A model generated the notes under the pieces. That model did not search any database and had not been told where the DNA came from. It was given only the letters and a program-made list of their open reading frames with translations. This document shows, one piece after another, positions 4,092-21,312 of a stretch of 24,784 bases of DNA. Made by a program: the position numbers and the translations under genes. Every line of letters starts with the position of its first letter. The stretch's first letter is position 1. The stretch is from a virus: the IMG/VR virus record IMGVR_UViG_3300008219_000092, positions 1 to 24,784 of that record. One strand, written 5' to 3'.

Positions 4092-7006
4092 TGGCACGGG
4101 TTCAGGCACTTCAGGGGAGTTTTGTAACAGGAGAGATTTCTCCAAAGTTACAGGGGAATGTCCTCTTGGAATCATACAAGAGTTCACTAGGAACCTGCCT
4201 GAATTATGTTGTTGTTCCACAGGGTGCAGTGATGAGGAGACCTGGAACGAGGTATGTCACTCCAACAAAGAATGATGGAGAGGTACGTCTGATCCCCTTC
4301 AATTTTGGACAAGGACAATCCTATGTGATTGAGGCAGGCGCAGCATACTTCAGGTTCTTCACTGCAGATGGAGTCTTGATGGAAGGAGCATTAAGTTCCA
4401 CTCCACTGGAAATCACAACAGACTCTGATGGAGATGCAGTTCCATATGGAGTTGCAGATCTTGACGGGCTTTATGTCACCCAGAGTGCAGATACCCTCTT
4501 TATTGTCCATCCGAGTTATCAACCCTTCACTCTCAAACGCACAGGCACCTACACTTGGGTGTTTGCAAAGTTGGATCTCAAGCATGGTCCCTTTGATCCT
4601 GTCAATGTCTCAGACACAGTTCTTCATGTTGATATGACCACAGGGTCATTTGACAAGGAGAGGATGACAGATATCATCCAAACCTCTGATTACATTGATA
4701 TTACAAATGAGAGATTCAGTGTCACAAAACATCCCTTTGTCAATGGACAGAAGATCTACTTTGTATCCTCTGGAACCATTCCCTCCGGGTTGACTGCAGG
4801 GCCAGGAACCCAGTATTACATCATCAACTCAACAGAGAACACCTTTCAGGTTTCAACTGCCTACAGTGGGACTCCTGTCAACATCACCAATGTCCAAACA
4901 GGAACCCTCACAATCTGGAAGGAGTTTATTCCAAAGGATACAACAATCACCCTGACAAGTTATAATCTTCTTAGTAATATCAACTTCACTGCGTCTGATA
5001 ACAAGTTCAACAAAACCGAGCATGGATTTGCAAATGGGACAAAGATGCGCTTTGTCAGATCTGTTCCTGTAAGTGAATTTACAATAGAGACTATCTACTA
5101 TGTGGTTGGAACAGATACCAACGATTTTCAACTCTCTGCCTCAGCAGGAGGAACTGTAATCACAGGAGCAACCAACTTCCAGGCAACAACTCTTCATGCA
5201 AATGGAATTCTTGGAATCAACTCTGACACAGGATTTCAAACCACTGATGTAAACAGGTACATTCGATTAAACAATGAGATCTATCCCCACATTCGTTGGG
5301 GATATGCACAGATTAAAACAAGATCCTCCACCTCTGTTGTCACTGCAACAGTTAAGGAATCCCTTGCAAACGAATTTACAACAAAGGAGTGGGCACTAGG
5401 TGCATTCAGTGGGACATCAGGGTATCCAAGAACAACCCAGATTTACCAACAGAGGCTTGTTTTTGCAGGAACCACCAGTGAACCCCAGAATATCTACTTC
5501 TCAAAAACAGGAGATTTCAACAACTTTGCAACCACAGAGGCATTTGGAAAGGATAGTGGAAGTGTGGATTCCACAGGCGCAAAGATAATCACAGAGCAGA
5601 TTTTTGATGACAATGCAATTACCCTTCAAATCTCCTCTGATACTGTTGATCTCATTGAGTGGTTAAATGAGGATGCACGTCTCTCTCTTGGAACCTCTGG
5701 AGGAATCTTTCAAGTGTATGGATCAGATACAGACTCTACCCTCACTCCATTCAACTTTACAATCAAGAAAATCACAGACTGGCCCTCTGAGGACACTGCA
5801 CTTCCACAGAAGATTGGAAACAATGTTTTGTATGTCCAGCAGAATGGACGAAAGGTCCGGGAGTTGATCTTTGATAATGAACAAGAGCGATACAGTGCAG
5901 ATGACATCTCCATCCGCTCAGAAAACCTCTCCCAGCAGGGAATTGTGGAGATGACATACCAAGATCAACCACATGCAATTTTGTGGTGCAGGAAGGCAGA
6001 TGGGAAACTTGCTGCCTGTACCTATGTTAGATACCAACAAGTGATTGGGTGGCATCGTCATGAGATTGCAGGAACCCACACAGAGGCAACTCTGAACTAT
6101 GGAACACATGCAAAAGTTGAAAGGATGGTTTCAATTCCAAGGATCAACTATGACCAGATGTGGTTTGTTGTAAAAAGATCCATCAACCTTGGAATTGTGA
6201 CTGTTCCAGATCATACAAATGATAAACTTGCACTCAGTGGTCATGGAATGGTGAACACAACACGAGTCCGGTTTTCTACTACAGATACCCTTCCTGATCC
6301 TCTCAGTGTGGACACAGACTATTATGTTGTTAGCACCGCAACAAATGACTTCAAGGTTTCAACTACATCAGGAGGAGGTGCAGTCAACATCACAGACACA
6401 GGAACAGGAACCCACACTGTAAGGATGATGGACCGTAGGTATGTGGAGTACCTTGATAAATTCTATGATTCCTCTGAGACTGATGCAAATGCAGCACATT
6501 TTCTTGATTGTGGAGCAATTTACTCTGGAGGATCAACAACCTCAATTACAGGATTGGGATATTTGGAAGGAGAAACAGTTTCACTTCTTGGAGATGCCGC
6601 CGCACAACCTGATAAAACTGTGTCCTCTGGAGCAATAACTGCACAACTTGCAGTCACACGAGCACATGTTGGACTCTCATACAACAGTGATCTCCAAACT
6701 CTTCCACTTGCACTTGGAACTGCAGATAACACATCCGTTGGAAACCAGAAGAGAATCCACAGGATTGTTGTAAGATTTCATGAATCAATGTCTCTCAGTT
6801 ATGGAATGTCAAGTGATGATTTAACAGTTGCAACATTCAGAAGAGGAGGAGATCCAATTTCATCTGCACTTCCACTTTTTAGTGGAGACAAGGAACTCGT
6901 GTTTCCATCAAACTATGATACATTAGGACAAGCATATTTGAGGTGTTCCCAACCATTTCCAAGTACCATCACCTTGCTTGCACTTGATTATGAAACCAAC
7001 GACTAG
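4091..7006 (+). CDS. Tail tubular protein B, gp12-like nozzle, with three inserted modules
   Basis: 971 aa. The start (MARVQALQGSFVTGEISPKL) and the following CLNYVVVPQGAVMRRPGTRYV are the hallmark N-terminus of T7 gp12-like nozzle proteins. The second half (RTTQIYQQRLVFAGTTSEPQ, later RKVRELIFDNE and GWHRHEIAGT) carries the beta-propeller and platform signatures of the family. The protein hexamerises below the adaptor and forms the tail nozzle to which fibres attach. It is longer than T7 gp12 because a module of about 70 residues occurs three times: roughly residues 203-275, 296-365 and 701-779. Each copy has an H-x-F/M-x-N-G core, a YY(I/V)(I/V) strand and a TN-x-F-(Q/K)-(V/L)-S strand. The N-terminal and core assignment is firm; module function is unknown and may be surface or fibre contact. 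Confidence 0.92.
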   Translation: MARVQALQGSFVTGEISPKLQGNVLLESYKSSLGTCLNYVVVPQGAVMRRPGTRYVTPTKNDGEVRLIPFNFGQGQSYVIEAGAAYFRFFTADGVLMEGALSSTPLEITTDSDGDAVPYGVADLDGLYVTQSADTLFIVHPSYQPFTLKRTGTYTWVFAKLDLKHGPFDPVNVSDTVLHVDMTTGSFDKERMTDIIQTSDYIDITNERFSVTKHPFVNGQKIYFVSSGTIPSGLTAGPGTQYYIINSTENTFQVSTAYSGTPVNITNVQTGTLTIWKEFIPKDTTITLTSYNLLSNINFTASDNKFNKTEHGFANGTKMRFVRSVPVSEFTIETIYYVVGTDTNDFQLSASAGGTVITGATNFQATTLHANGILGINSDTGFQTTDVNRYIRLNNEIYPHIRWGYAQIKTRSSTSVVTATVKESLANEFTTKEWALGAFSGTSGYPRTTQIYQQRLVFAGTTSEPQNIYFSKTGDFNNFATTEAFGKDSGSVDSTGAKIITEQIFDDNAITLQISSDTVDLIEWLNEDARLSLGTSGGIFQVYGSDTDSTLTPFNFTIKKITDWPSEDTALPQKIGNNVLYVQQNGRKVRELIFDNEQERYSADDISIRSENLSQQGIVEMTYQDQPHAILWCRKADGKLAACTYVRYQQVIGWHRHEIAGTHTEATLNYGTHAKVERMVSIPRINYDQMWFVVKRSINLGIVTVPDHTNDKLALSGHGMVNTTRVRFSTTDTLPDPLSVDTDYYVVSTATNDFKVSTTSGGGAVNITDTGTGTHTVRMMDRRYVEYLDKFYDSSETDANAAHFLDCGAIYSGGSTTSITGLGYLEGETVSLLGDAAAQPDKTVSSGAITAQLAVTRAHVGLSYNSDLQTLPLALGTADNTSVGNQKRIHRIVVRFHESMSLSYGMSSDDLTVATFRRGGDPISSALPLFSGDKELVFPSNYDTLGQAYLRCSQPFPSTITLLALDYETND
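4697..4915 (+). repeat. Nozzle inserted module, copy 1
   Basis: Encodes about residues 203-275 of the nozzle. Key positions are a His in KHPFVNGQKIYF, a PSGL turn, YYIINSTENTFQVS and a closing NITNVQTGTLT. It is related to copies 2 and 3 at the protein level only, with diverged DNA, so it is not a recent duplication. Confidence 0.75.
4976..5186 (+). repeat. Nozzle inserted module, copy 2
   Basis: Encodes about residues 296-365, directly after copy 1 with a short linker. It shows EHGFANGTKMRFV, YYVVGTDTNDFQLS and a Gly-rich close (AGGTVITGATN). It is aligned by eye with copies 1 and 3. Confidence 0.75.
6191..6427 (+). repeat. Nozzle inserted module, copy 3
   Basis: Encodes about residues 701-779, far from the first two copies and inserted after the core domain. 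It shows GHGMVNTTRVRFS, YYVVSTATNDFKVS and GGAVNITDTGTGTHTV. It is closer to copy 2 (TNDF core) than to copy 1. Confidence 0.75.
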
Positions 7007-7015
7007 GAGATTAAA

Positions 7016-7642
7016 ATGGCATGGTGGGTAGTCCCTCTAATACAGGCAACAGGTCTTTTGTTATCATGGCAGGCACAACAGCAGCAATCCCGGCAACAGC
7101 AGTCTCAGTATAATGCACAGGCAGCAGAGTATAGAAGGTATGCAAATGAACAATACAAGATCACCCAGAAGAAGATGGGGTTTATTCGTCTACAATCCTT
7201 GAGAAAGGAAGATGAACTAAGAGTGTTAGGACAATTGAGAGGACATGAAATCAAAATACAGGGAAGACGTGCAACCTCAGCAATTAGTGCAGAAACAGGA
7301 TCATCTGGTGCAGTTGTTGGATATGGAACTCCAGGGCAGATTGAGTTTGAACAGGTTTTGACTGCAAACCGTGCATCCGCAAACATGGTAAACAGTGCAA
7401 ACTTGAAAGCACATAATCTTCAAGTGAGTACCAGCAGACAATTGGAGATCATGCAGGATTCTGCAGAGCTTGCAAGAACATCAATGGTTGCAAAGGCAGA
7501 ATGGGCAACTGCTGCTGCTGCCGCAAAAGAGGCATCACGTTTGATTGAAGGCGCAGGAACCCTCTTGACAGGCACAGGAACAATGGCTCAAACCCAGTAT
7601 ATGATGCCTGTGGATCAACGAATTCCTTGGTTTAGACCCTGA
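7016..7642 (+). CDS. Internal virion (ejection) protein, gp14-like
   Basis: 208 aa after AGGAGATTAAA-ATG. A short hydrophobic N-terminus (WWVVPLIQATGLLL) is followed by a very Gln-rich helix (residues about 18-45), a long charged coiled coil and an Ala-rich helix (WATAAAAAKEA). The SSGAVVGYGTPGQIE segment is a common feature of T7 gp14-like internal core proteins (G-S-G-V-x-x-G-s-P). These proteins sit in the internal core and are ejected first to form a pore in the host outer membrane. Position right after the nozzle agrees. Its stop shares one base with the next ATG (TGATG). Confidence 0.82.
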   Translation: MAWWVVPLIQATGLLLSWQAQQQQSRQQQSQYNAQAAEYRRYANEQYKITQKKMGFIRLQSLRKEDELRVLGQLRGHEIKIQGRRATSAISAETGSSGAVVGYGTPGQIEFEQVLTANRASANMVNSANLKAHNLQVSTSRQLEIMQDSAELARTSMVAKAEWATAAAAAKEASRLIEGAGTLLTGTGTMAQTQYMMPVDQRIPWFRP

Positions 7643-10575
7643 TGGCACGTCTAAGATTCCAGAAGTTTGAGAAGGAACTGAGTCCTGTTGAGCAGGGAGT
7701 TGGAATCCCGTCTTATCCTGCTGCACCTCCTCCCCAGCAAATGGTAGGAGATGAGGTTCTCAGTGAAAGCCGCGCCTATGAACGTCTAGGACAATCAATC
7801 CTTGATTTTGGATCAACTCTTGGAAAAGTGATCACAAATGAACAGGGACGTATCCGCAAAGAAGTGTGGGAACAGGGGATGCCACTTGCACTTGCAGAGT
7901 TGGATCGAGAACTGGAGCAAAGGATTATTGATGATTATCAGCAAGGTTTAAGTCCGGCGGAATCAAAAAAGCAGTGGAAGCTGCATGTGAAAACCCTCAT
8001 AGATAATATTAAGAGTACCAAATCTTGGAAGAGCATCACGCATGAGGGAGACAGGAATAAGCTGGAGACCATACTTCGTGACAGGGCACACAGTATGGAG
8101 ATCAGGGCACTCCAGCAATCGTATGCCCTTCAGAATGAACTCCAATCCTCAATGGTTCAAAATCAGATCACTGGGGCACTGAATGACCAGTTACTGGAGA
8201 TTCAAGATCCTTCCTTCAACAAAAATTCTGAAGGAGAGGGCTTGGGGCATACCATCCCTCAAGATATCTTTCTCAAAAGTCATGTTATTGGCCGTGCAAA
8301 TGCTGAGATTGAACAAATACTGGAAGCTAACAACATTAGTGGGAGGCAGGCGCAAAGACTAAAACTCTGGGCTGCATCTGCAGTCAATGATTTACAATAC
8401 AAGGCACTTTCACACCACATTAAGATCAAGACTGGAATTGCTGCAGCAAACTGGCAAGAAAAGTACAATAACTTGGTGAAGACTGCTGCATTGGGAGGGT
8501 CCAGTGTCAGAAGACGTTTGGTTGATGGTAAAGTCTCTGAAGATTCACGATTAGACCCAGTGGAGGAGCATCTTCAAGGGGGTCTTGCTGCAGAGTTGAT
8601 TGGTCCAAAGGATGCCCTACGTCTCAGGGAAGATGCAAAAGTAACCTTTGATCTCAATGATGTCAACAATGATATCAGGGATAACCCTTTGGATACCTAT
8701 TGGATGCTCCGTACTGATGAACCAACAAAGGAGGAGAAGGAAGAGATTATTGCTGATTCTGGCAAGGAAGAATGGAACCGTCTGAACGAGTTGAGAGGTG
8801 GGTATTACCCCTCACTCATGGGAGCAGCACGGGAATCCAAGATTAAAAACGCACTGTCTGAGATTGAAAGTCAACAATCAGCAGATATGGAAATGGCAAA
8901 TCAAATGCTGAAACGTGCAGGAGAAGTTCTTATTGATCCTGAGTCATCTCCTGAGAGTATTGCAGCAGTTAAAAATACTGAGTTTCTTGATCAGTTTAAG
9001 CATTACAAACATTTTCAACGTAAACCGTGGAAACTTAAACAGTGGAAGCTGGCTCTTGAGTATGCAGAAACAGTTGGATTGGGAATCAAGGATATTGACA
9101 AGAAATCCTATAAGGAGTTTCAAGAACTCAAAGATAGTCTACATCCTAAGAATCAGAAGTTTAAGGATGCTGAAGGAAAGGATATCCCTGATCAAGAAAA
9201 CTTCCGGTATTCCCAGATGATAGGAATTTATTCTGGAGTTTTAGGGGAACTCCAGAAATTGATTGATCTCCGAGTAAAAGACCCGGCATCCATTGGACAT
9301 CAGCAAGCAGTGAAAGATGAGATTGATCCAGAATCTCCAGAGGGTATTAAGAGGATTATAAGAGATCAGATGAACTGGAAAGGAATACCTGATGATCAAT
9401 ATCCAAGTCCAAGTGAACTTTCAAGACAAGTGCTTGCAGGAACAACTGCAGTGTGGTCTTTAAGCATGAGAGAAAGGAGAGGGAAGGAATGGAATGCGCT
9501 TACCATTTCCGGTACAGGTGTGAAGAAGAAAGAATTTCTGGATACCTTAATTAAAAAATCTGGAGAAAATGCATCTTCTGTCATGAATGAGTTTATCAAA
9601 GCAGATGGATTCACATGGGGAGATTATATCTACACAGAGATAAGTAACCCTGTGCTTTTGGATGAGTTTAATGATTCCCAGAAGCATTTGGCAAAAAACC
9701 GTGAAGAAGTTGGAATAATTTTTGATGTAAAGAAAGAACCTGCAGCATCCTCTTTCAAGACACTGAGAGAAAAGGTTTCAAGAGATGAGACTGTAAGGGC
9801 ATTTCTGGATTCTTTTGGCACCGGAACTGCAGAATCGTCTAGTGTTTTGGATATGCTTACAGATTATGTTATTTACAAGAAAACCAAAAATAGAGGTTTC
9901 ACTCTGGATGAGGTCATAGAACTTGCAGAGACTCACTTGATTTCCAACCAGTATGTAGTAATTCAAGGAGGATCTGGAGAGAGAACAACAGTCCGCATTG
10001 CATTGAATAATTTACCACAGAGGAATGGTGAACCAGTAAACCCGGATGTTCTTAATGATGTATTAATAGAATACACAGAACGTCTGGTGGAACATGTAAG
10101 TGCAGAAGCGAGAGAGACAGGATGGGATATTGCAGACATTGGAGGATCAGATCTCTGGCAGTGGAGGATAAACCCAGATGAATCAGGACTCACTCTTTTT
10201 TTCTGGAATGAGGATGCAGGTATGTTTCAAGAGGCACTTTACAATGAAAATAAATTTCCTCTCACATGGAGTGATTTGCAGGGAGTATATGACATAGTAA
10301 AGAATAATGAAACTTCTGTTTTGTTTAGAAAAAGACCTTGGAACATACCGCAAGGACTTGCAGAACCAAGACCTTTAACAAGAATAGGCTGGCCTCAAGT
10401 GGAGAAACCCTCACCTTCTGTTTTCATTAGAAAAAGGCACCCACAGGAAGAAACACCTGTAGAACCAGAAGTGGTTGAACCATCACCAAGACCAGAAGTG
10501 GTTGAACCTCCACCAAGTCCAGAAGAGGAGGAACCCTCTGGGTGGAGGGAACTTCTTATTCGTCAGAGGAAATAG
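7642..10575 (+). CDS. Internal virion (ejection) protein, gp15-like
   Basis: 977 aa, almost wholly helical and charged, starting with MARLRFQKFEKELSPVEQ. Early residues contain a Pro-rich linker, then helices such as YERLGQSILDFGSTLGKVI and a long series of Lys/Glu-rich helices with no membrane segment. This is the expected architecture of a T7 gp15-like ejection protein, which builds the channel across the periplasm. The last 50 residues form a Pro/Glu tail with a 9-residue tandem repeat (PEVVEPSPR, PEVVEPPPS). The tail ends 5 bases before the next start. No enzyme motif was seen. Assignment rests on size, order (between gp14- and gp16-like genes) and helical composition; sequence identity to T7 gp15 is not visible by eye. 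Confidence 0.72.
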   Translation: MARLRFQKFEKELSPVEQGVGIPSYPAAPPPQQMVGDEVLSESRAYERLGQSILDFGSTLGKVITNEQGRIRKEVWEQGMPLALAELDRELEQRIIDDYQQGLSPAESKKQWKLHVKTLIDNIKSTKSWKSITHEGDRNKLETILRDRAHSMEIRALQQSYALQNELQSSMVQNQITGALNDQLLEIQDPSFNKNSEGEGLGHTIPQDIFLKSHVIGRANAEIEQILEANNISGRQAQRLKLWAASAVNDLQYKALSHHIKIKTGIAAANWQEKYNNLVKTAALGGSSVRRRLVDGKVSEDSRLDPVEEHLQGGLAAELIGPKDALRLREDAKVTFDLNDVNNDIRDNPLDTYWMLRTDEPTKEEKEEIIADSGKEEWNRLNELRGGYYPSLMGAARESKIKNALSEIESQQSADMEMANQMLKRAGEVLIDPESSPESIAAVKNTEFLDQFKHYKHFQRKPWKLKQWKLALEYAETVGLGIKDIDKKSYKEFQELKDSLHPKNQKFKDAEGKDIPDQENFRYSQMIGIYSGVLGELQKLIDLRVKDPASIGHQQAVKDEIDPESPEGIKRIIRDQMNWKGIPDDQYPSPSELSRQVLAGTTAVWSLSMRERRGKEWNALTISGTGVKKKEFLDTLIKKSGENASSVMNEFIKADGFTWGDYIYTEISNPVLLDEFNDSQKHLAKNREEVGIIFDVKKEPAASSFKTLREKVSRDETVRAFLDSFGTGTAESSSVLDMLTDYVIYKKTKNRGFTLDEVIELAETHLISNQYVVIQGGSGERTTVRIALNNLPQRNGEPVNPDVLNDVLIEYTERLVEHVSAEARETGWDIADIGGSDLWQWRINPDESGLTLFFWNEDAGMFQEALYNENKFPLTWSDLQGVYDIVKNNETSVLFRKRPWNIPQGLAEPRPLTRIGWPQVEKPSPSVFIRKRHPQEETPVEPEVVEPSPRPEVVEPPPSPEEEEPSGWRELLIRQRK
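10465..10525 (+). repeat. 27-bp tandem repeat in the gp15-like gene
   Basis: Two adjacent 27-bp units (10465-10491 and 10492-10518), each starting CCAGAAGTGGTTGAAC, plus 7 bases of a third, encode PEVVEP(S/P)P(R/S). The two units differ at only a few bases, so the duplication is recent or maintained. The encoded Pro/Glu tail is probably extended and flexible. Confidence 0.85.
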
Positions 10576-10580
10576 GACTA

Positions 10581-12344
10581 ATGCCTTTTTACACACAAGA
10601 GAGAATCCCGACTCCTGGAGGAATGGAGTATTTTGGAAGGCAGTATGACCCCTCTCTCTCTGTCATCTTCAGTGAATCCTTCATGGAAGGATTCAGGGAT
10701 ATCACTCCAATGCTTGCACTTTCTTACACACAACTCCAGTACGCAGGAGGAGCAGTCTATTCAACAGAGGATCAATGGGAGTCCTCAGAGTTTTTCAGAG
10801 AAGGACTTGAGTATGATCAGGATATGACAGAAGGACAGGCACGTTTACTTGCAGAGAGGCATGATCAAAACCGGAGATATGCAGACTTGATGTCAAGAAC
10901 CTCTTTTGGAGGCGCGGCTCTTGGCATTGGAGGATATCTGGTTGGTTCAATTCCTGATCCCATCAACTTTATTCCATGGTTGGGAATGGTGAAGAAGGGA
11001 AAGCAGGTTCAGGCTTTAATAAATGCAACCACCCGTGGAAAACGTGCCCTTAGAGGAGTCATTGAAGGAGCAGGAGGGGCAATTGCATTCCAGCCACTCT
11101 ATGCAATGGAGAAAAGTTCTTACCAAGAAGAGTATGATTACTCAATGGCATTTGCTGATATTGCAATTTCTGCAGGAATTGGTGGTGCATTTGGAGGATT
11201 GTTTGGAAAGATACATCCCAAAGACCCTGATTTTTCAACCAAAAAACTTGAGGATGCAAAAAACATCTCCTCTGTCCCACTTAGGGATAGAGTAGATGCG
11301 GTGAAAGTTTCCCAAGCACAAAGAGCCGCAGGAGAGACACCGGATGCCGCACACATTCTCAATAGGTCAAAGCCAGAACCTGTAACTCTAGATCCAGCAG
11401 ACACGGCACAAACACACGCCGCTAAACTCGCAGGGGCACCTTCTGGAGTAATAAAGGGATCATTTGTGGAGTCTCAACTTCTGAATCCGGATGGATCTCT
11501 TATGAGGGTCTACCACGGAATGGTGCAGGCAAAAGGGACAGATCCGTTTGAAGCAATAGTTGCAGGCAAGGATTCAAATGGAATGATTGCATTTACAACT
11601 GATCCTTCTGAAGTTGTGTGGTATCCAAGAAGGGGAATTCCACCAGAAAGACTGGCGGCATACGAAGCACTTGTTGATGAGTTTCCAGATTTCTTTGAAA
11701 TATCTGATCGCGGAAAACCGTATGCGGTCTTCGACTTTATGCCAGAACGTCTTCAGGATGCAGATGTTGAAGCGAGAATCAAGGGATTAGAGGAAGCAGG
11801 AACTCCTCTCAGGAATAAGGACGGTGAACCCATCAAAACGGTTTCTGAGGGGAACACTCTTGAAAACATGACAAGGGAATTGGACGAGGGATTTCCTGAA
11901 ATAGTGGGAGGAGAAATCAATCCTCGCTTTCTCAATGTGAAGAATCTCCATCCACCAATGCCTCCCAAGGAGATAAAGGAGTTGGGTGCAGAGTGGTTCA
12001 AGAAGGAGGGGTTTGATGCAGTCTGGTCCACAGAAGAAGGAGGAAACAAAGTCATCTTCACAGTGGACCCTGCTCAATCCAAATCCATCTATGAACCTGA
12101 GTTCACAAAATTAAATGAAGCTGTTGCCACTGAGGAGATAACTCCTGTGTCAAATGATCAACTCAAGTCAAGGAAAGAGCAGAAGTTGGAGTTGGAACAT
12201 GCAGATCAGAATCTTGCTGCAATGGGAGATGACATCTCAGATGAGGGTGTAAGGATAATCGTGGACGTGGAGGATTCTAGTGAGAGAATAACTGCACAGT
12301 CAGAAGGATATCTGGCTGCAGGGAACTGTTTGGTGAGAGCGTGA
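10581..12344 (+). CDS. Large ejection protein with ADP-ribosyltransferase-like segment
   Basis: 587 aa from the ATG at 10581, which follows the gp15-like stop and an AGGAAATAGGAC ribosome site. Residues 108-135 and 193-210 are Gly/Ala-rich and hydrophobic (GGAALGIGGYLVGSIPDPINF, ISAGIGGAFGGLFG), as in the membrane-active N-terminal parts of gp16-like and 'polyvalent' phage proteins. Residues about 293-505 resemble the ART-PolyVal fold: RVYHG (309-313), GMIAFTTDPSEV (334-345), then GFDAVWS (477-483) and VIFTVDPAQSKSI (491-503), the typical closing strand. Such domains transfer ADP-ribose from NAD to host targets. Whether this one is active is unknown: the usual catalytic Glu is not obvious to me. 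It is probably delivered with the DNA. The stop shares one base with the next gene. Confidence 0.7.
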   Translation: MPFYTQERIPTPGGMEYFGRQYDPSLSVIFSESFMEGFRDITPMLALSYTQLQYAGGAVYSTEDQWESSEFFREGLEYDQDMTEGQARLLAERHDQNRRYADLMSRTSFGGAALGIGGYLVGSIPDPINFIPWLGMVKKGKQVQALINATTRGKRALRGVIEGAGGAIAFQPLYAMEKSSYQEEYDYSMAFADIAISAGIGGAFGGLFGKIHPKDPDFSTKKLEDAKNISSVPLRDRVDAVKVSQAQRAAGETPDAAHILNRSKPEPVTLDPADTAQTHAAKLAGAPSGVIKGSFVESQLLNPDGSLMRVYHGMVQAKGTDPFEAIVAGKDSNGMIAFTTDPSEVVWYPRRGIPPERLAAYEALVDEFPDFFEISDRGKPYAVFDFMPERLQDADVEARIKGLEEAGTPLRNKDGEPIKTVSEGNTLENMTRELDEGFPEIVGGEINPRFLNVKNLHPPMPPKEIKELGAEWFKKEGFDAVWSTEEGGNKVIFTVDPAQSKSIYEPEFTKLNEAVATEEITPVSNDQLKSRKEQKLELEHADQNLAAMGDDISDEGVRIIVDVEDSSERITAQSEGYLAAGNCLVRA

Positions 12345-14839
12345 TGGCAAAAGACCCTTGTTTTGATCTTATCAAACAGGCACGTTTTAGAATGTCTGAT
12401 GAAGAAGCTCGTGATCTCATCAAGAAACTTAGAGAAGAGAAGCAGCATCTTATAAAGTTAAGTCCTGGAGACTGGCAGGTTAAGTTCAAGAAGAAGATAG
12501 TTGACGATAGTGAACGTGTAAAGTGGGTTGCCCAGCAAAGGGAAATTCAGGTGAAGCGTCAGATCTTCAAAGATCCTGAAAACCTGAAGAGGATTAGAAG
12601 GGATGCCAAGACAAAGGAGAACTTTTCTGCCTTCTTGGTTGGCAGCACCAAAAAGAAGGAGGGGTTTCTTGATTCTGTGTGGAGCCTTGGACATGCAATG
12701 GGGTCTCTTCGTCTAGGAAGGATTTTCTCTGTTCTTCCAGGAGGAAACTCTGCATTAAGTAGACCTTCTGTCTTTGGATATTTCCCCTTTGGACGTGGGT
12801 TGTTTGACCAGCAGGAGTTTCAGGCTGCAGTGGTTCAAGAATTGTTTCCATTCACAGGAAAGCAGAAGGGAAATAATGACCTTGCATTCAAGATGGCAGA
12901 CGCAATCAACAAGGAACAACGTGAGTTGGTGAACCTTGCAAACTCTGAGGGTGCAGCAATTGGATGGCTTGATGATTTTGTGACGACACAATATCATGAT
13001 CTGAGAAAAATTGAGAAGGCAGGATTTGAAAAGTGGAAATCTGATATCTCAGGTTTTCTGGATGAGGATCGGACCTTCTTTTCAAGAGACATGCAGGATC
13101 GTGAGAATTTCCTGCAACAGGTGTATGATAATATTATCCAGAACAAGAGGGCACTTGCAGATGCTGCACCTGATGAGGTTGGAATGGGAAAGATGTCGCT
13201 TGCAAACATGATGTCCCAGTCTCGGCAGTTGCACTTCAGGAATGCAGATTCATGGTTGAAGTACAACTCTCTCTATGGACATGAGAATCCAATCCAAGGG
13301 ATTATTCGTGGAATTGAAAGAATGAGTGCAAACGTGGTTCTCATTCAGAAGTTTGGTGCAAACCCAGATTTTACATTCAACAAGTATTTGAAATCATTTC
13401 CTGAATTGACACCAAAAGAGACTGCAAGGATCAAATCTGAGTATGCTCAGGTTTCTGGAAAAGCACATCAAGTGGGGAACCCCACGCTCCACAAGTGGGA
13501 GCAGAGTCTTGCTGCAATCCAGAATATGTCAAAACTTGGAAAGGCAACAGTCTCTGCATTCACAGATCCAATGTACTCTGCGTTTGGGGCGCACTACCGG
13601 GGAAAGAACTACTTCAGTGCGTATTATGAGACTTACAAGACAGGTTTGCTTCAGTCTCCATTCTGGAAAACTGCATCCTCAAAAGAGAAAAGAGAGTTTG
13701 CACGAAAATTAGGTATTGCACTTGATGGAGTCATTGGTAGTGCTTCTATGAGGTTTGATTCAAATGGTGGAGGTCCAGGCACCATGCAGAGGATGGTTGA
13801 TAACTACTTCAAGTTGACAGGACTCAATGGATGGACAAACTGGTGGGCAGAAGGTGCAGCAATCCTGCTGGCAGATGATCTTGCAGATGCAACCAGAAAA
13901 TCGTTCTCAGAACTTACTCCAAGGTTTCAAGTGTTTCTTGGAAACTATGGAATCACAGAGATAGAGTGGAAGGCACTGTCAAAATTTGAACCTGATGTGG
14001 TTGGAGATGCAAAGCTCTTTACTCCTGAACTCATCTACAGGGATTTGGAGGAAAAGATTGCTGCGATTCCAAATCCTACAAAGGAGGATCTCAATGCATT
14101 CAAACAACAGAGGAATTTAGGAGATAAACTACAGAACCTCTTTGTTACAGAGAATGAGAATCAAGTGATACGTCCAGGAGGACGTGAAAGGGCATTCATG
14201 TCAAGAGTACCCTTTGGAGGAGACGAGGAGTTTGCAAGACCTGGGACTCCCTCTGGAATGGCAGCAAAGCTATTCTGGCAGTTCAGGAGTTTTGGACTTT
14301 CAATGATGTTTAAGAATTATCCTAGAGTTTGGGAGATGGGGATGCCTGCGGCGATGCATCTCATTCCAATGGTTGGACTTGGGTACGCAGCAAAATCTGC
14401 AAAGGATCTCTTGAAGGGAAAAGAACCTGTGGACCCCTTTGTAGATCTAGAGGCATTCTCAAAAACGGTTATTGCATCTGTGCTGCAGTCAGGATTTGGA
14501 GGAATTGTTGGAGATCTTGTTTTTAACGACTACAGGAAATATGGACACTCATTTTGGGATGTTTCGCTTGGTCCTACTGCATCAACCATGCAGGATTTTG
14601 CCATGTTGTACAGTGCCTTTGTGCGAGGTGACGATTTTGCGGCAAGAACATGGAATGCACTGAAGCGTAATGCTCCATATGGAAACTTCTGGTTAACCAG
14701 CACCCTGATGGATTACTTCATTAATTTCCAGATTCAAGAATTTCTAAACCCAGGATACCTCAGACGAATGGAACGCAGGGCGAGAAAGAAGAACAATCAG
14801 GAGTTCTTGTGGTCTCCTGCACAATTTGTAAACAGATAA
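12344..14839 (+). CDS. Large internal virion protein, gp16-like C-terminal type
   Basis: 831 aa. The ATG at 12344 overlaps the previous stop by one base (TGATG). It begins with a short Cys-containing helix and an EEARDLIKKLREEK helix. The centre contains a helical region with WTNWWAEGAAILLADDLADATRKSF. The C-terminal 200 residues are diagnostic: FWQFRSFGLSMMFKNYPRV, LIPMVGLGYAAKSAKDLLKGKEP, NAPYGNFWLTSTLMDYF and FLNPGYLRRMERRARKKNNQEF. The last segment (N-x-P-f-x-N-l-w-x-t-x-x-x-D-y ... LnPGYLrRmerR) recurs at the end of gp16-like ejection proteins in podoviruses. It would span the inner membrane during DNA entry. No lytic transglycosylase motif was seen in either this or the preceding protein. 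Confidence 0.8.
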   Translation: MAKDPCFDLIKQARFRMSDEEARDLIKKLREEKQHLIKLSPGDWQVKFKKKIVDDSERVKWVAQQREIQVKRQIFKDPENLKRIRRDAKTKENFSAFLVGSTKKKEGFLDSVWSLGHAMGSLRLGRIFSVLPGGNSALSRPSVFGYFPFGRGLFDQQEFQAAVVQELFPFTGKQKGNNDLAFKMADAINKEQRELVNLANSEGAAIGWLDDFVTTQYHDLRKIEKAGFEKWKSDISGFLDEDRTFFSRDMQDRENFLQQVYDNIIQNKRALADAAPDEVGMGKMSLANMMSQSRQLHFRNADSWLKYNSLYGHENPIQGIIRGIERMSANVVLIQKFGANPDFTFNKYLKSFPELTPKETARIKSEYAQVSGKAHQVGNPTLHKWEQSLAAIQNMSKLGKATVSAFTDPMYSAFGAHYRGKNYFSAYYETYKTGLLQSPFWKTASSKEKREFARKLGIALDGVIGSASMRFDSNGGGPGTMQRMVDNYFKLTGLNGWTNWWAEGAAILLADDLADATRKSFSELTPRFQVFLGNYGITEIEWKALSKFEPDVVGDAKLFTPELIYRDLEEKIAAIPNPTKEDLNAFKQQRNLGDKLQNLFVTENENQVIRPGGRERAFMSRVPFGGDEEFARPGTPSGMAAKLFWQFRSFGLSMMFKNYPRVWEMGMPAAMHLIPMVGLGYAAKSAKDLLKGKEPVDPFVDLEAFSKTVIASVLQSGFGGIVGDLVFNDYRKYGHSFWDVSLGPTASTMQDFAMLYSAFVRGDDFAARTWNALKRNAPYGNFWLTSTLMDYFINFQIQEFLNPGYLRRMERRARKKNNQEFLWSPAQFVNR

Positions 14840-18891: not shown

Positions 18892-19115
18892 ATTTAAGTC
18901 TTTTGGTTCAAGGTTTAATAATAGGATTTGTGCTTGCAATCACAGGACTTTTCAGTGCAATTTATCATATGGAAATGCAGACATTAAATCGTATTGCATT
19001 GATAGAAGCATCTGTTAGAAACATCGAGGAATCTGTCCGGAACTTACAGCTTCGCATGAGTCATTTAGAACAGGTTTTAATCAATTATGATCACGAAAAA
19101 ACAGAGAAGGAGTGA
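18888..19115 (+). CDS. Small membrane-anchored coiled-coil protein
   Basis: 75 aa starting with GTG (GTGA overlap with the previous stop). Residues about 6-26 (LVQGLIIGFVLAITGLFSAIY) form one membrane segment; the rest is a coiled coil with regular heptads (IALIEASVRNIEESVRNLQLRMSHLEQVL). No cleavage site is seen, so it is probably N-terminally anchored. It may be a second holin, antiholin or i-spanin-like component. The stop overlaps the endolysin start by one base (TGATG). Confidence 0.58.
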   Translation: MNLSLLVQGLIIGFVLAITGLFSAIYHMEMQTLNRIALIEASVRNIEESVRNLQLRMSHLEQVLINYDHEKTEKE

Positions 19116-19498
19116 TGCATAGTACAAAGAATTTCAGTTCAGCCGAGTTGCAATGCAAATGCGGATGTGGAGGTAATGAGATGAAACCTGACTTCCTTGA
19201 TAAATTGCAGACAATCCGAGATGAGTTCAAGAAACCCATGCGAATCAACAGTGGTTTCCGCTGTTCAAAACATGATGCCAATGTCTCATCTTCAAAAATT
19301 GCAGGGAAAGGACCGCATACAACTGGTCACGCAGTGGATGTTGGAATCTCAGGATCAGATGCTCTTCTGCTTGTAGAATTGGCAGTTAAAAATGGAATGA
19401 CTGGTATCGGAATCAAGCAGAAAGGCAAGGGAAGATTCTGTCATTTTGACGATTTAACTGATGAAGCAGGTCCACGGCCTTGGATATGGTCTTACTGA
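19115..19498 (+). CDS. Endolysin, peptidase M15-family D-Ala-D-Ala carboxypeptidase-like
   Basis: 127 aa from the ATG at 19115 (preceded by GAAGGAG; a GTG one codon earlier is possible). It matches peptidase family M15A: an N-terminal FSSAELQCKCGCGG, a conserved SGFRC (residues 46-50), a zinc-binding H68-x3-G-H-A-V-D75 motif (GPHTTGHAVDVG) and a second ligand at H110 in RFCHFDD. Such enzymes hydrolyse peptide cross-links of peptidoglycan and are common endolysins of environmental phages. There is no signal peptide, so release across the membrane needs the neighbouring holin-like proteins. The family and metal ligands are clear; exact bond specificity is not. Confidence 0.9.
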   Translation: MHSTKNFSSAELQCKCGCGGNEMKPDFLDKLQTIRDEFKKPMRINSGFRCSKHDANVSSSKIAGKGPHTTGHAVDVGISGSDALLLVELAVKNGMTGIGIKQKGKGRFCHFDDLTDEAGPRPWIWSY

Positions 19499-19925: not shown

Positions 19926-19945
19926 TGTTATCAAAACTGATATCA
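19926..19945. promoter_or_regulatory. Integrase-side arm-type repeats
   Basis: TGTTATCA (19926-19933) and an exact TGATATCA (19938-19945) lie on the integrase side of the tRNA core, the last overlapping the integrase stop. Together with the four copies on the other side, they flank the core as P and P' arms would. The role as binding sites is inferred. Confidence 0.5.
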
Positions 19946-21004
19946 TGCCAGCATCCTCTGATTCATTCCCTTGACGACATTTGAAGAATGCTCCTCTGTC
20001 AAATGTGAGTATCTCATCACCATACCAAGAGTCCGGTGTCCAAGAGAATCTGCAATGTCTCTGAGGGTTGCACCATCCATTGCCATGTAGGACGCAAAGG
20101 TATGTCTGAGATCATGGAACCTGAAATCCTTTAGATCTGCAGCACCCACTGCACTTTCAAAGGGTTTCCGGAAGGAGATGGGTTTGTGCTTGTCTCTCCT
20201 ACCAGGGAACACAAGCTCTGTGTCAATCCTCCGGATCTTGTTCCTGAACTCTGTGAGTGCAGGTCCATCAAATGCAACTCTTCGGGTGTCTCCATTCTTT
20301 GTATCACGGAAAATCACTGATCCTTTTACCAAGTCCACATCTCCCCATTTCAATCCCCAGATTTCCATCTCCCTTCCTCCTGTGGAGAGTGCAAGCATCA
20401 CCACCAGAAAGAGATCAGGGTTGGAACTCTTTCTGCACTCTGAAAGCAGGAAGTGACGTTCCTCATTTGTGAGGAACCGTGTTCTCCCCTTTGGTTCTTC
20501 CAGCTTTGGAATCCTCCTGACAGGGTTCGTTTCCAATACAAACCACTCCTCCACACAGACCGTGTAGACCTTGGAGAGGGCACTCAAGTATCGGTTGACA
20601 GAGGCGTTGCTGAGTCTCATCATCAGCTTCTCCTTCACCTGGACCAGATCATAGGGTTTCACATCACGGGCCTTGAGCGTGGGAAGTTCCTTGATCCAGA
20701 ACTCCAATTGTCCACGCATGGTGACATCCGGATTCTTCCTTGAGATGAAATCCTTGATGAGTTTCTGGATGGAGTCTGCTCCTGCACCAGAGGGTTTCTT
20801 CTTGATCTCCCTCTCCAGGGTTTCCTCATAGATTCTGTTCAAGAACCGAGTCCTCTGTGAGGGTTCTCCTTTCGTTGAATACTTGTCGCGCTCCCTCACG
20901 GAGCAGAGACTGAGCTTCTTGTACTGCCCAGAGGGGAGGATCAGATCATAGAACCTACCGTAGACTTTCTCTCCTCGTGTGAAAAACAATGCGTCTTGTC
21001 TCAT
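19943..21004 (-). CDS. int: Tyrosine recombinase (phage integrase)
   Basis: 353 aa. The N-terminal part (residues 1-65) is an arm-binding-like domain, the middle (about 75-160) a SAM-like core-binding domain with NRYLSALSKVYTVC, and the C-terminal part the catalytic domain. The full active set is visible: R211 (STGGREMEI), K236 (RDTKNGDTR), H297 with R300 (FHDLRHTFAS), H323 (LGHRT) and Y332 (VMRYSHL). The enzyme should be active. It lies beside the tRNA-Lys attP, so it integrates the phage into that gene. It follows the repressor gene with a 4-base overlap (ATGA on the minus strand), so repressor and integrase share one lysogeny transcript. Confidence 0.96.
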   Translation of the reverse strand: MRQDALFFTRGEKVYGRFYDLILPSGQYKKLSLCSVRERDKYSTKGEPSQRTRFLNRIYEETLEREIKKKPSGAGADSIQKLIKDFISRKNPDVTMRGQLEFWIKELPTLKARDVKPYDLVQVKEKLMMRLSNASVNRYLSALSKVYTVCVEEWFVLETNPVRRIPKLEEPKGRTRFLTNEERHFLLSECRKSSNPDLFLVVMLALSTGGREMEIWGLKWGDVDLVKGSVIFRDTKNGDTRRVAFDGPALTEFRNKIRRIDTELVFPGRRDKHKPISFRKPFESAVGAADLKDFRFHDLRHTFASYMAMDGATLRDIADSLGHRTLGMVMRYSHLTEEHSSNVVKGMNQRMLA

Positions 21005-21312
21005 GCGGCTTCTCTCCCTCCCTTCATTGAAATGATTAAAAGGTTCTCAACTGTCTTGAATTTCTCCGTGAGAATCTTGTTCTCCTCAAGGAGATTCCTG
21101 TCCACATAGGGAGGATCTATCCCAAACAGCACCTGATCCACACTCTTCCCCTTCTTGATGCAGTAGCTGACGATCTCCTCCAGAGGGACGGTCCCTCTAC
21201 TCTTGTATCCGGCATAGGACTGCTTCGATAGCCTCAAGCAGGCAGCAATCTCCTGATCCTCTCGGAACCCCTCCATGTACGCAATGCGCCCCATGATTTC
21301 ACTAAACTCCAT
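21001..21312 (-). CDS. Short CI-like repressor, HTH domain only
   Basis: 103 aa with a strong ribosome site (AAGGGG, read on the minus strand). Residues 10-65 match the N-terminal HTH of phage CI repressors: AACLRLSKQSYAGYKSRG, then VPLEEIVSYCIKKGKSVDQVLFG (the l-s-x-x-x-l-x-x-W/Y-k-x-R-x-x-iP ... GxSxDxLLxG signature). The rest (ENKILTEKFKTVENLLI) is a short coiled coil, probably for dimerisation. The C-terminal S24/LexA-like self-cleavage domain of lambda CI is absent, so induction by RecA-driven cleavage is not expected. It faces the early operon across a 176-base control region and is co-transcribed with int. Confidence 0.82.
   Translation of the reverse strand: MEFSEIMGRIAYMEGFREDQEIAACLRLSKQSYAGYKSRGTVPLEEIVSYCIKKGKSVDQVLFGIDPPYVDRNLLEENKILTEKFKTVENLLIISMKGGREAA

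Follow-up and report, generated by a model that had tools for sequence, protein, structure and literature searches.

Organisation of the slot gene and its partner

The window analysed here is the whole of a 24.8-kb virus record (IMG/VR record IMGVR_UViG_3300008219_000092, positions 1–24,784); open reading frame (ORF) starts were called mechanically throughout. On the plus strand of the window, the ORF at 10581–12344 translates without an internal stop into a 587-aa protein at the position of epsilon15 gp16, referred to here as the slot protein, which combines an N-terminal ejection domain, a cargo domain resembling the ADP-ribosyltransferase (ART) family ART-PolyVal and a C-terminal tail containing the sole Cys of the chain. 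The N-terminal domain (residues ~20–232; 10638–11276, plus strand), which is all-helical in the predicted model and matches phrog_342 (T7 gp16 family) and phrog_3003, is kept in all slot proteins. The ART-PolyVal-type domain (residues 285–505; 11433–12095, plus strand) includes a long variable insertion at residues ~349–446 and carries, on the same strand, RVYHG (11505–11519), assigned to strand 1, equivalent to the family's YHGT and containing His312, which is invariant across the family; MIAFTTDPSEVVWYP (11583–11627), with Ala337 in place of the strand-2 aromatic of the family motif GfYF and Tyr348 retained; RFLNVKN (11925–11945), equivalent to the family motif P.YLsikNP; GFDAV (12009–12023), equivalent to GYDGV and containing Asp479; and VIFTVDPAQSKS (12051–12086), equivalent to vAFrPeQIKS. 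The codon of the sole Cys, Cys583, lies at 12327–12329 (plus strand), four residues before the end.

The following gene (12344–14839, plus strand), whose ATG overlaps the slot stop codon (TGATG), encodes a gp17-like 'pilot' or virion structural protein (phrog_684) that appears to be the C-terminal half of a T7-gp16-like protein. It likewise contains a single Cys, Cys6, encoded at 12359–12361 (plus strand).

Relationship of the cargo domain to ART-PolyVal

ART-PolyVal (PF18760) is the sole Pfam match of the slot protein and falls in the correct place, but is weak (E 0.023, or 0.0012 for the domain alone), with the 15.9–20.0 bits of the window protein not reaching the curated cut-off of 31.2 bits. 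Stronger matches were obtained among relatives, including phage loci designated here by L numbers. The slot proteins of the two IMG/VR phages L020 and L021 are 47% and 44% identical to the window protein over the full length, the gp17 of these phages is 68–70% identical to the window gp17, and their domains match PF18760 at 29 bits (E 1.6e-6 and 1.9e-6). The match rises to 64 bits (3e-17) in Vibrio phage 1.182.O and to 90 bits (2.3e-25) in L071, in both cases for the slot protein at the syntenic position, and the fused chain of Vibrio phage K437b also matches (2.2e-6). Because its own score lies under the cut-off and its link to the family runs through the 44–47% identical L020 and L021, the window domain is, judged by sequence, a divergent relative of ART-PolyVal rather than a curated member.

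Conservation within the domain agrees with this placement. All nine columns that are invariant among 30 aligned members are present in the window (S298, G305, H312, G313, P448, D479, Q499, K501 and S502), and the landmarks of the clade (pre-strand, H, GxD and DPxQxKS) line up with those of 27 canonical members. Alignment of two small ART profiles with hhalign gave a probability of 73% and a local E of 3e-5, while the ART-alignment profile retrieved solely sub-threshold matches from the PDB, with ART-fold exotoxins on top (E 0.14–0.5). A model of the ART region alone has a mean predicted local distance difference test (pLDDT) score of 71, with 85–95 in the C-terminal strands, and yielded 22 matches in BFVD at E ≤1e-3, several of which are named ART-PolyVal (best E 4e-7). 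Among the first 50 PDB matches to this model, about 10 are ART folds (MbcT, PARP, tankyrase and exotoxin), which are thus over-represented among weak matches; we take MbcT to have an ART fold.

These results bear out part of a preliminary description of the locus, made from the sequence alone, which had placed RVYHG, MIAFTTDPSEV and VIFTVDPAQSKSI in that order and likened the arrangement to the ART-PolyVal layout. The motifs were recovered at residues 309–313 (nt 11505), 334–345 (MIAFTTDPSEV from residue 335, nt 11583) and 491–503 (nt 12051), and the layout is upheld by the intermediates L020 and L021, the retained invariant columns and the BFVD matches. The ART fold expected around residues 293–505 was not contradicted by the model, for which the BFVD matches include ART-PolyVal and the PDB matches are suggestive. 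Of the Gly-rich membrane-active segments said to precede the motifs, the Gly-rich, moderately hydrophobic stretches are present (for example, residues 190–208 and 113–131), but, with a 19-residue hydropathy that peaks at 1.49, they do not qualify as classical transmembrane helices.

Comparison with the published family (PF18760; Iyer et al. 2017, PMC5512222) shows a common motif order, strand-1 H, invariant GxD and DPxQxKS end, as well as fusion to virion-delivered proteins. The window domain differs in the loss of the strand-2 aromatic, an insertion of ~100 residues and, in one alignment, two extra residues before DP. It is also the single cargo of a split ejection protein, whereas ART-PolyVal is known from giant polyvalent proteins. 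Polyvalent proteins carry multiple effector domains, unrelated to one another, on a single large chain (Iyer et al. 2017); the window protein with its one cargo falls outside that definition, whereas fused relatives such as L078 (ParB, PBECR5, ART and gp17) fall within it. T4 Alt, a head-packaged ART delivered with the DNA, offers a functional model for the window protein, but it belongs to the R-S-E clade (Iyer et al. 2017), with no sequence family demonstrably in common; the window domain opens with YHG and lacks a Glu in the strand-5 position, unlike the R-S-E active site.

That no catalytic Glu is evident, as had been remarked, is correct and is to be expected, because the triad of ART-PolyVal is H-Y-D (Iyer et al. 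2017, PMC5512222) and not H-Y-E; at the PARP-like position, Glu occurs in just 51% of members. Both His312 and Asp479 are retained in the window, the corresponding H and D each being present in 100% of 68 members. Asp479 aligns with the sole near-central Asp conserved at 100%, and we read its position as that of the Asp assigned to strand 5 by Iyer et al. Another conserved Tyr position (Y 76%, F 16%) is occupied by Tyr in the window (Tyr348) and in L020 and by Phe in L021. The ratio of nonsynonymous to synonymous substitution rates (dN/dS) of the ART core is ~0.1–0.5, similar to that of the N-terminal domain, and the long insertion is far less constrained; in the comparison involving the window, synonymous sites are almost saturated. 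As the core is conserved in sequence, the ART-like domain likely has some function.

A probable split T7-gp16-like ejection protein

The phrog_342 profile is matched end to end by T7 gp16 and in part by the window N-terminal domain (profile positions 292–429) and the window gp17 (824–996), while a single fused chain of Vibrio phage K437b covers positions 292–1225 with the ART inside. Because one profile thus matches the slot protein, gp17, T7 gp16 and the fused K437b chain, the slot protein and gp17 together appear to correspond to T7 gp16 split in two. T7 gp16, an internal virion protein with a transglycosylase domain, is nevertheless a single, Cys-free chain lacking such a cargo, whereas the window encodes a split pair with an ART.

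Upstream of the slot gene on the plus strand lie a gp14-like internal virion protein (phrog_418; 7016–7642) and a 977-aa protein (7642–10575) at the position of gp15, the periplasmic tube, by synteny; both are Cys-free. The resulting order, tail–gp14–gp15–slot–gp17, is common to many podophages of the epsilon15 type in our synteny comparison, so that the window shows both the homologous N-terminal domain and the gene order of the epsilon15 gp16/T7 gp16 ejection family. Phages with the epsilon15 gp16/gp17-type pair (the Uetakevirus members phiV10 and SPN1S, BcepC6B and Piluca) share this gene order, the C-terminal Cys tail and the N-terminal-Cys gp17 with the window but have coiled-coil-like, SLT or ParB sequence at the place of its ART. 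In Alcaligenes phage Piluca, the two genes are annotated as 'epsilon15 gp16-like' and 'pilot protein'. Comparison of the window slot protein with PDB sequences by phmmer gave zero matches, searches of the PDB with slot-family and gp17 profiles gave nothing useful, as did a search with the full-length model, and no relative turned up when bacterial genomes were scanned twice with narrow queries.

In the topology model of T7 gp16, residues 1–228 are periplasmic and residues 411–1118 cytoplasmic (PMC8954989), on which basis the cargo would sit at the inner membrane or beyond it. The 68 canonical ART domains contain 0 Cys in 10,472 residues, and the 68 phage ORFs that bear them, 53 of which are entirely Cys-free, have 0.31 Cys per 1,000 residues compared with 5.1 in neighbouring ORFs, which serve as a rough control (~16-fold depletion; L102–L180). 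The injected virion RNA polymerase of N4-type phages is also Cys-free, for which passage through the tail and periplasm has been proposed as the reason (PMC3715699, PMC3915230). The depletion is consistent with passage through the periplasm and thereby lends indirect support to ejection of the window protein. The preliminary description of a protein ejected with the DNA is accordingly sustained for the ejection-protein context (synteny and phrog_342), and ejection itself is suggested by homology and Cys depletion.

An exchangeable cargo slot

The middle of the slot protein is, on sequence comparison, swappable, flanked by an N-terminal domain and a tail that both stay constant. Other cargos found in the slot are PBECR3 or GNAT, SLT, and SLT with ParB, and fused chains hold several domains; a slot protein free of cargo measures 390 aa. 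Between L020 and L021 (L020:3193–5004 and L021:3136–5004), DNA identity is 98% in the tail, 92% in the linker and 54% in the ART insertion, a divergence that could reflect either local exchange or fast cargo evolution.

In the pair L071 (3346–4995) and L090 (3016–4995), the ejection module is near-identical and the ART is exchanged for a Zeta toxin domain. Identity between them is 71% over residues 1–225, 62% over the last 91 aa and 85% for gp17.

Junction cysteines

In the window, the codons of the single Cys in the slot protein and the single Cys in gp17 start 32 nt apart. Both junction Cys are present in all 117 split pairs, which were drawn from IMG/VR as well as from named phages (including L003–L097 and L262–L341), with the slot Cys 2–7 residues before the end and the gp17 Cys near the start. 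The split set comprises 50 clusters below 60% identity, some lacking a complete slot gene; the phages being related, neither the split nor the fused counts represent independent events. Exactly one Cys per protein was found in 103 of the 117 pairs; the additional Cys of the other 14 all lie upstream of likely true start codons, except C581 of the L090 gp17. Fused chains (n = 27, 1,185–2,914 aa) are wholly Cys-free in 26 cases, and T7 gp15 and gp16 contain none. The lone fused chain with Cys (L282:1–5838) has seven in its cargo (residues 366–577), clustered in the manner of a metal-binding domain, and lacks Cys at the junction.

The junction is collinear between fused and split forms. In a tree of gp17 from a quick search, in which the placement of K437b and T7 on long branches is unsure, IMG/VR fused chains are nested inside split ones, beside a split sister with both Cys; because of this nesting, fusion appears to have been accompanied by the loss of both Cys. 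The simplest reading of the pattern would be that a disulfide between the junction Cys re-joins the two halves. No report of such a junction disulfide was found in the open-access library searched. Roles of the Cys in metal binding, lipidation or homodimer formation were considered and leave unexplained why fused versions lack both.

Other genes in the window

The window also encodes a major head protein and tail tubular proteins, in addition to the gp14-like, 977-aa and phrog_684 virion proteins described above. In relatives, an acetyltransferase gene lies between the tail tubular B and gp14-like genes; none is present at 7006–7016 of the window. Downstream are a gene for an endolysin-like peptidase M15 (19112–19498) and, on the minus strand, genes for a tyrosine integrase (19943–21004) and a CI-type repressor (21001–21312), the latter two making it probable that the phage is temperate.

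Proposed mechanism and alternatives

We consider it probable that a T7-gp16-like protein has been split in two, with the slot protein as its N-terminal half, and that the slot protein bears an ART-PolyVal cargo, is ejected with the DNA while disulfide-linked to gp17 and acts early on a host target. The N-terminal domain (~20–232) would represent the part of T7 gp16 just ahead of its cytoplasmic C-terminal part, with the ART-PolyVal-family cargo (285–505) inserted behind it and followed by the tail (504–587) that ends with the sole Cys; the gp17-like protein (12344–14839), beginning with its own sole Cys, would be the C-terminal half. The pair would travel inside the virion and leave it together with the DNA, its halves linked by a disulfide between the terminal Cys that arises either in the free virion or in the periplasm and is possibly released through reduction in the cytosol. 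The cargo would then reach the cytoplasm, the site of NAD+, and hit its host target before phage gene expression; modification of host proteins at that stage is plausible.

Several results weigh against this interpretation. At the strand-2 aromatic position, where 66% of the family has Y and 24% F, the window has Ala337, L020 a Ser and L021 a Pro, and because of this loss catalysis is uncertain, such that we give ADP-ribose transfer by the window domain an even chance. On the T7 topology, the split junction would lie in the cytosol, whose reducing conditions a disulfide would not survive. Against our own hidden Markov model (HMM), built from 68 canonical ART-PolyVal members, the window domain reaches 10.9 bits, short of the 13.0 bits attained by the best among 2,000 shuffles, so that the window sequence alone is not significant. 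The ART-only model has no significant match in the PDB (best E 0.27), and in the full-length model, where the N-terminal domain is confident, the ART region is poor when canonical members are left out of the alignment.

The alternative that retains most weight, although we regard it as somewhat doubtful, is that the ART-like domain is degenerate and non-catalytic, serving within the ejection protein as a structural spacer or a module that binds NAD+ or a host protein. It would account for the Ala, Ser and Pro at the strand-2 aromatic in three clade members, the change of Tyr348 to Phe in L021, the fast change of the insertion (37% amino acid identity between L020 and L021) and the complete lack of cargo in close gp17 relatives (44–45%); retention of the His, the Asp and all nine family-invariant columns, together with constraint on the core comparable to that on the N-terminal domain, speaks against it. 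Rather unlikely is an arrangement without an inter-protein disulfide, in which the terminal Cys bind metal, form homo-oligomer disulfides or occupy the sole sites at which Cys is tolerated. The cytosolic orientation of the junction in the T7 model and the general avoidance of Cys in these ejection proteins would suit it, but mere tolerance would not yield conservation in both proteins of 117 of 117 pairs, and the pair is missing from 26 of 27 fused versions, including the fused clade nested among split ones, despite a collinear junction. Activity of the cargo on the envelope in the periplasm, instead of in the cytoplasm, is less likely still: SLT domains held in some slots cleave peptidoglycan and necessarily act there, whereas ART chemistry requires NAD+, the PBECR RNase, GNAT and ParB cargos have cytoplasmic substrates, and the cargo is inserted at a point past the membrane-proximal portion of T7 gp16. 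Chance resemblance of the motifs in an unrelated fold, to which the weak direct scores and insignificant PDB fold matches might point, is highly improbable given PF18760 matches of relatives at 2e-6, the nine retained invariant columns and the BFVD fold match at 4e-7.

Returning to the disulfide-linked split pair, we tentatively extend it to epsilon15-type podophages as a group, with slightly less than even confidence: these phages may have split a T7-gp16-like protein, turned its first half into an interchangeable effector carrier and re-joined the halves by a disulfide between unique Cys, with gene fusion removing both the need for the bond and the two Cys, and cytosolic reduction potentially freeing the effector half. 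Effectors of polyvalent proteins, whose injection has so far been a prediction, would be linked to a specific delivery component in the form of the T7/epsilon15 ejection protein, within whose otherwise near-constant frame cargos swap, and the Cys pattern would provide a sequence-readable mark of ejected phage proteins.
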